Assembly (NCBI GenBank): GCA_018266075.1 | Contig: JAFEBB010000029.1 | Location: 1 to 64,000, forward strand | From: Deltaproteobacteria bacterium | Lineage (GTDB): Bacteria > Myxococcota > Myxococcia > Myxococcales > SZAS-1 | DNA length: 64,000 bases | Direction: 5' to 3' | Part shown: piece after piece, positions 19,974 to 21,524 of the stretch | Position numbering within the stretch: position 1 is the stretch's first letter | Layout of the letters: the number at the start of each line of letters is the position of its first letter | Translations under genes and position numbers: made by a program | Notes under the pieces: generated by a model | Told to the model about the DNA's origin: nothing | The model's database searches: none | What the model saw: the letters and a program-made list of their open reading frames with translations, nothing else

Positions 19974-20195
19974 ATGCCCCTCTACGAGTACGAATGCGCG
20001 AAGTGCGGCACCTTCGAGGCCAACCAGCGGATCACCGAGCCCGCGCTCACCAAGTGCCCGCAGTGCAGCGGCAAGAAGGTGAACCGGCTCATCTCCACCA
20101 GCTCCTTCAGCCTCAAGGGTGACGGCTGGTACCGCGACCTCTACGGCAAGGGCGGCTCCAACTCGTCGAGCGGCGGTGGAAAGCCCGCGGCGTGA
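19974..20195 (+). CDS. FmdB-family zinc-ribbon protein
   Basis: A 73-residue protein starting MPLYEYECAKCGTFE, the family start, with two CxxC pairs (C8/C11 and C29/C32) forming a zinc ribbon; the rest is a Gly/Ser-rich tail. FmdB-type proteins are small putative regulators of unknown target. ATG 19974 was chosen because it begins the conserved sequence. Its stop overlaps the GTG start of the pseudouridine synthase gene. Confidence 0.9.
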   Translation: MPLYEYECAKCGTFEANQRITEPALTKCPQCSGKKVNRLISTSSFSLKGDGWYRDLYGKGGSNSSSGGGKPAA

Positions 20196-21121
20196 AGAAG
20201 CTGGAGTTGCAGGTCGCCGAGTCCGACGCGCGTGAGCGGCTCGACCGCTTCGTGGCCCGGGCCGGCGGCATCGCGCGCGGGCTGGCGCGGCGGACCATCG
20301 AAGCCGGCGGCGTGTACGTCGACGGCAAGCGCACCAAGGTCGCGTCGCGCGGGGTGCACCCCGGGCAGACGGTGTCCGTCGTCCTCGAAGAAGCGGGCCG
20401 CGCGGCGCCGCAGCCCAAGCTCGAATCGCCGCTGCACGTGATCTTCGAGGACGCGCACCTGCTCGCGGTGGACAAGCCTGCGGGCATCGCCGCGCAGGCG
20501 ACGCTCGCCACGGATCGCGGCGCGCTGACGTCGATGGTGGCGGCGCACCTCGGGCTCCCTTCGGATCGCGACGTGGGCCTGGTGCACCGGCTCGACCGCG
20601 AGACGAGCGGCGTGACCGTGTTCGGCAAGAGCAAGCGGGCCGTCGCGAACCTGGCGGAGGCGTTTCGCGAGGGCACGGTGCAGAAGCGCTACCTCGCCAT
20701 CGCCGGAGGGCCCATCGACGCCGCGCACGAGGTCGATGCGTGGCTGGCGAAAGATCCGTCGAAGCCGGGGCTCTTCAAGCCGGTGCCTGCGGGCACGGGC
20801 GTGCCTGCGCAGACGCGCGTGGAGCCGCTGTCGAAGCCCGGCCCCGCGACGCTCGTTGCGTGCCTTCCCGCAACCGGACGCACGCACCAGATCCGCGTGC
20901 ACCTCGTCTCGCTGGCCGCGCCCATCGTGGGCGACAAGCGCTACGGCGGGCCAGTGAAGGTGCAGCTGCCGAACGGCGAGCTCGTGGGCGAGCGCGTGCT
21001 CTTGCACGCTGAGCGGCTCGAGCTGCGGCATCCGATCTCCGGTGAAGCGATGGTGTTTCGTGCGCCGGCGCCTGCGGACCTCGTCGCGGCGGCGGCGTTG
21101 CTGGGCGTGGCGCTCGACTGA
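20192..21121 (+). CDS. RluA-family 23S rRNA pseudouridine synthase (GTG start)
   Basis: A 309-residue enzyme that isomerises uridine to pseudouridine in RNA. Residues 1-65 are an S4 RNA-binding domain. The catalytic motif VHRLDRETSG at 131-140 carries the nucleophile Asp135. The ATGRTHQIRVHL block near residue 228 completes the RluA signature. It may be RluD- or RluC-like; the exact target cannot be told. GTG 20192 gives a GTGA overlap with the FmdB-family gene. Confidence 0.93.
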   Translation: MKKLELQVAESDARERLDRFVARAGGIARGLARRTIEAGGVYVDGKRTKVASRGVHPGQTVSVVLEEAGRAAPQPKLESPLHVIFEDAHLLAVDKPAGIAAQATLATDRGALTSMVAAHLGLPSDRDVGLVHRLDRETSGVTVFGKSKRAVANLAEAFREGTVQKRYLAIAGGPIDAAHEVDAWLAKDPSKPGLFKPVPAGTGVPAQTRVEPLSKPGPATLVACLPATGRTHQIRVHLVSLAAPIVGDKRYGGPVKVQLPNGELVGERVLLHAERLELRHPISGEAMVFRAPAPADLVAAAALLGVALD

Positions 21122-21176: not shown

Positions 21177-21205
21177 TTGCCAGCCCCGCACCGGCGCGCT
21201 AATCA
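21177..21205 (+). promoter_or_regulatory. Likely sigma-70 promoter of the histone-fold gene
   Basis: A -35 box TTGCCA at 21177-21182, a 17-bp spacer and a -10 box TAATCA at 21200-21205, ahead of the ATG at 21268. A 14-bp palindrome CGGATCGCGATCCG (21148-21161) lies just upstream and could be a regulator site. Confidence 0.45.
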
Positions 21206-21267
21206 AACGCCGCTTTTTTCCCACACGAGGCGTCGAACGGGCTTCGTCCCAAATCCACGGAGTGATC

Positions 21268-21468
21268 ATGGCCGGCGGCAAGAAGGACCTGGAGATGTTG
21301 ATCGTGCAGAGCAAGATCCGCGAGACGGTGCGCGAGCTGGACAAGAACATGCGCATCTCCGACGAGTTCCTGATGGCGCTCAACGAGCACGTCCACGGCG
21401 CCCTGAAGACGTTCATCAGCCGCGCCGACAAGAACGGCCGCAAGACCCTGCGCGAGTACGACGTCTGA
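21268..21468 (+). CDS. Histone-fold DNA-binding protein candidate
   Basis: A 66-residue basic protein that fits a single histone fold. Helix 1 covers about residues 10-24, a Ser31 cap begins the long helix 2 (32-55), and the sequence after the second loop, GRKTLREYDV, matches the RKT(I/V/L)xxxD ending of archaeal histones, where the Arg-Thr pair contacts DNA and the Asp forms an intramolecular clamp. Similar short histones are known in Bdellovibrio and some other bacteria. It should form a dimer that binds DNA. ATG 21268 has GGAG 5 bp upstream; a GTG six bases earlier is possible. It has its own promoter and terminator. Confidence 0.65.
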   Translation: MAGGKKDLEMLIVQSKIRETVRELDKNMRISDEFLMALNEHVHGALKTFISRADKNGRKTLREYDV

Positions 21469-21493: not shown

Positions 21494-21524
21494 AAGGCTC
21501 TGCTTCGGCGGGGCCTTTGTTTTT
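21494..21524 (+). terminator. Rho-independent terminator after the histone-fold gene
   Basis: Stem AAGGCTC / GGGCCTT (7 pairs, one G-U) with a 10-base loop, followed by TTGTTTTT. It ends at the stop codon of the convergent MFS gene. Confidence 0.75.

Follow-up and report, generated by a model that had tools for sequence, protein, structure and literature searches.

A 66-residue protein of a Myxococcota bacterium is very probably an alpha3 (face-to-face) histone

A reading frame encoding 66 residues is located in the window, the 64,000-nucleotide stretch of Myxococcota DNA analysed in this study (Table 1). A direct check of its coordinates placed the ATG at 21268 and the TGA at 21468, exactly the location and length claimed by the initial annotation. 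The pI of the product was calculated to be 9.2, and its net charge was only about +1.7. Since relatives within the order share 44–58% identity with this protein and a histone in PDB was matched with an E-value of 8e-8, the frame is not a product of chance; it encodes a real, conserved histone. The genome (7.84 Mb, 166 contigs) contains one copy of the gene.

Table 1 Features at the histone locus (positions are those of the window)
Feature	Position	Strand	Basis
RluD-type pseudouridine synthase gene (S4 + PseudoU_synth_2)	20192..21121	+	conserved upstream neighbour, 13/15 orthologous loci
Weak promoter-like element, TTGCCA-17-TAATCA	21177..21205	+	read as letters; missed by sigma-70 consensus scan
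GGAG, ribosome-binding-like site, 5 nt before ATG	21259..21262	+	read directly
Histone gene, very probably FtF (alpha3), 66 aa	21268..21468	+	ORF list, sequence and profile searches, residues, predicted fold
Intrinsic terminator: 10-bp stem, 4-base loop, U-rich tail	21494..21524	+	hairpin scan, folding

Downstream of the gene, a terminator-like hairpin (21494-21517) is followed by TGTTTTTC, and this terminator borders on the end of an MFS transporter gene that is convergent with the histone gene. The hairpin scan found 3 hairpins as compared to 0.5 in shuffled sequences, and the z-score of the fold was -3.0; these values bear out the claim that the gene has a terminator of its own. A promoter of its own had also been proposed. 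The letters of this element are present as described, but it was absent from the output of the sigma-70 consensus scan, and scores as high were reached by 31% of shuffled sequences. Six relatives (L002, L003, L004, L006, L007 and L010) have a better element, TTGAAA-17-TAGAxx, ahead of this gene, and a putative promoter in the upstream region is, thus, plausible.

Scans of the 66-residue protein against Pfam and NCBIfam gave no model matches, and the members of its alignment showed only weak, scattered matches to Pfam. When the single protein was compared with the PDB sequences using phmmer, the match mentioned above was the best, and it corresponded to 9F2C, which is HTkC, the face-to-face (FtF) histone of Thermococcus kodakarensis (PMC11390915). 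The E-values were 0.11 for HLp of Leptospira perolatii (9QT0-9QT2) and about 0.3 for HBb/Bd0055 of Bdellovibrio bacteriovorus (8CMP and 8FVX), and HMfB was not matched in this search. A profile built from 14 sequences, the relatives of the protein, matched 9F2C at 9e-17, HLp at 4e-15, HBb at 6e-12 (8CMP/8FVX at about 1e-11), HMfA at 0.007 and HMfB at 0.1. In both searches, the homology to FtF histones ranks above that to other histone classes, with HTkC as the best match and HLp as the next. Of HMfB and Bd0055, the comparisons proposed in the initial annotation, neither is the closest histone, HTkC and HLp being closer.

The structure of a single chain was modelled from an alignment of three sequences, and the confidence of the model was modest (pLDDT 72, pTM 0.47). 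The model has a long alpha1 extending to about residue 28, alpha2 at residues 32-55 and a short, rudimentary alpha3. Because the last helix covers only residues 63-65 and the chain ends at residue 66, alpha3 appears in this model of moderate confidence to be truncated as in the FtF class (3-4 residues). Foldseek with this model gave HTkC first and HLp next with a best E-value of 0.008, and the remaining listed matches were also histone folds. The single-domain histone fold that had been claimed is, therefore, backed by the sequence searches, the predicted fold and the conserved residues described below.

The published FtF signature of D4GZE0 consists of K11, R41, N45, R47, T49 and D54 together with the carboxylate of residue 55. 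In the 66-residue protein, K16, R52, N56, R58, T60 and D65 are all present, the spacing from the Arg onward is identical to that in D4GZE0, and the chain ends one residue after the Asp (V66). These residues were invariant across 14 aligned sequences; they include T60 and the R58/D65 clamp, so the DNA-contacting Arg-Thr pair and the clamp Asp noticed earlier are both present and conserved. All 14 distinct orthologue sequences retain R52 and N56, and so do 14 other sequences of the phylum, 13 sequences from a second paralogous class and 14 haloarchaeal sequences. The corresponding positions are occupied by S/D in HBb and by L/I/V and A/S (mostly L/A) in nucleosomal histones.

These residues bear on two other assignments. 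A dimer histone of the HBb/Bd0055 type, reported to bend DNA as a dimer, would belong to the same alpha3 superfamily, and it shares with the 66-residue protein the alpha3 fold, the R-D clamp, the RKT motif and the alpha1 lysines, in line with the profile match to 8CMP/8FVX. However, HBb carries Ser and Asp where the protein has Arg and Asn, contacts by which the literature separates the two classes, and it thus lacks the Arg/Asn tetramer contacts; besides, it sits elsewhere in the tree, together with L048 (98/80). This assignment is improbable. A nucleosomal HMf-like histone polymerising into hypernucleosomes can be given hardly any weight: while the RKT...D motif, the handshake-type fold and the weak profile match to HMfA agree with it, alpha3 is short, the chain stops one residue past the Asp, the nucleosomal histones form a separate branch (100/100), and a PF00808 scan of the genome found nothing. 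Both the HBb-type and the HMf-type assignments were rejected on residues and tree. The protein is very probably an alpha3, or FtF, histone, for which a tetramer, DNA wrapping and an in vivo role can be proposed from HLp and HTkC.

Matches to the protein were found in 22 of the 147 genomes of the class and in 43 of the 195 genomes of the phylum. The relatives recovered agree with the placement of the source genome in Myxococcota. Close orthologues occur in 15 genomes of the order, including the source genome, and their distinct sequences form one clade (99/96). In 13 of these 15, the histone gene is directly downstream of the RluD-type pseudouridine synthase gene on the same strand, and the retention of this neighbour favours vertical inheritance in this order. 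In the tree, neither HBb nor the second paralogous class falls within the orthologue clade, and the HLp-like sequences of the phylum, which group with HLp (98/89), are separate from it too. The tree was based on 59 columns, and the deep branching order, including the donor of the clade, is beyond its resolution. Among named genomes, the closest sequences found outside the order are archaeal, with identities over the aligned part of 44% (Heimdallarchaeota) and 48% (Halorarius). An archaeal origin by transfer would be compatible with these sequences, but the tree does not show the transfer. A phage origin found no support, as a scan of viral contigs yielded no relatives.

Several other histone-like sequences were observed during these searches. 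A second, divergent FtF-like class (L014-L017 and L036-L047) is present in the same class of bacteria; its members have a C-terminal D-F plus a few residues and N at the position of R29, and in some genomes they co-occur with the first class. Two open frames of the phylum (G182:C18:525892-526263 and G183:C11:628997-629365) each contain two tandem histone-fold matches and are, thus, doublet histones. L048 (G145), which groups with HBb as described above, has Ser/His at the positions of R52/N56, so that the class may contain histones of the bacterial-dimer type as well. The haloarchaeon Halorarius halobius has eight FtF-like histone matches (L019 and L065-L071), and L019 is on a plasmid.

In addition to the fold, family, signature residues, orthologous clade and gene neighbourhood observed here, a mechanism can be proposed by analogy with HLp and HTkC. 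Two chains would form a handshake dimer, and two dimers would join at both ends to give a closed, torus-shaped tetramer. The dimer-dimer contacts would involve R52 and N56 at the C-terminal end of alpha2, together with R58 and the carboxylate that terminates the chain in the opposing dimer. About 60 bp of DNA would wrap around the tetramer without sequence specificity, with predicted contacts at K16, R18 and R22 in alpha1 and at R29, S31, K59 and T60 in the L1/L2 loops. HLp tetramerises via R49, N53 and R55 and wraps about 60 bp (PMC12701072). Since the protein is assigned to the FtF class with HTkC and HLp as its nearest histones, its expected quaternary state would be a closed DNA-wrapping tetramer rather than a DNA-bending dimer like HBb or a hypernucleosome like that of HMfB, and a tetramer as in HLp, wrapping about 60 bp, is the most likely by this analogy.

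HTkC is the best match in both sequence and fold, falls in the same length class and has equivalents of K16, R52, R58 and T60, whereas it is archaeal, has Glu at the position of N56 and shares about 42% identity with the protein. HLp is bacterial, like the 66-residue protein, and shares the R49/N53/R55 tetramer contacts and the clamp Asp; however, its identity to the protein is only about 24%, and it groups with other sequences of the phylum and not with the orthologue clade. Leptospira has been reported to be without HU (PMC12701072), whereas the genome examined here has three HU/IHF-family genes. Thus, the FtF histone is not the sole nucleoid protein, and it may act as a nucleoid organiser beside the HU/IHF-type proteins, a role modelled on HLp and HTkC. 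The presence of these three genes, together with the patchy distribution within the class and the low net charge, would also suit a histone fold used outside bulk chromatin, for example in a regulator of low abundance or in a module for protein-protein interaction. This use is unlikely, given that the probable DNA-contact residues K16, R18, R29 and T60 are invariant within the orthologue clade and that the gene stands alone as a single gene and is followed by a terminator of its own.

A paper of 2024 (PMC11390915) and, again, one of 2025 (PMC12701072) list FtF histones from Myxococcota; they are, thus, already described as a category, of which the 66-residue protein is a further example. More tentatively, the protein may represent a separate FtF lineage of one Myxococcota order that is distinct from the Leptospira-like FtF histones of the phylum, was possibly acquired independently from archaea and works with HU/IHF-family proteins in a large genome (about 8 Mb). 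An FtF-class protein whose sequence is distant from that of HLp and whose nearest structure is archaeal, encoded by a genome that also carries HU/IHF-family genes, would test the generality of FtF wrapping and the coexistence of histone and HU chromatin.
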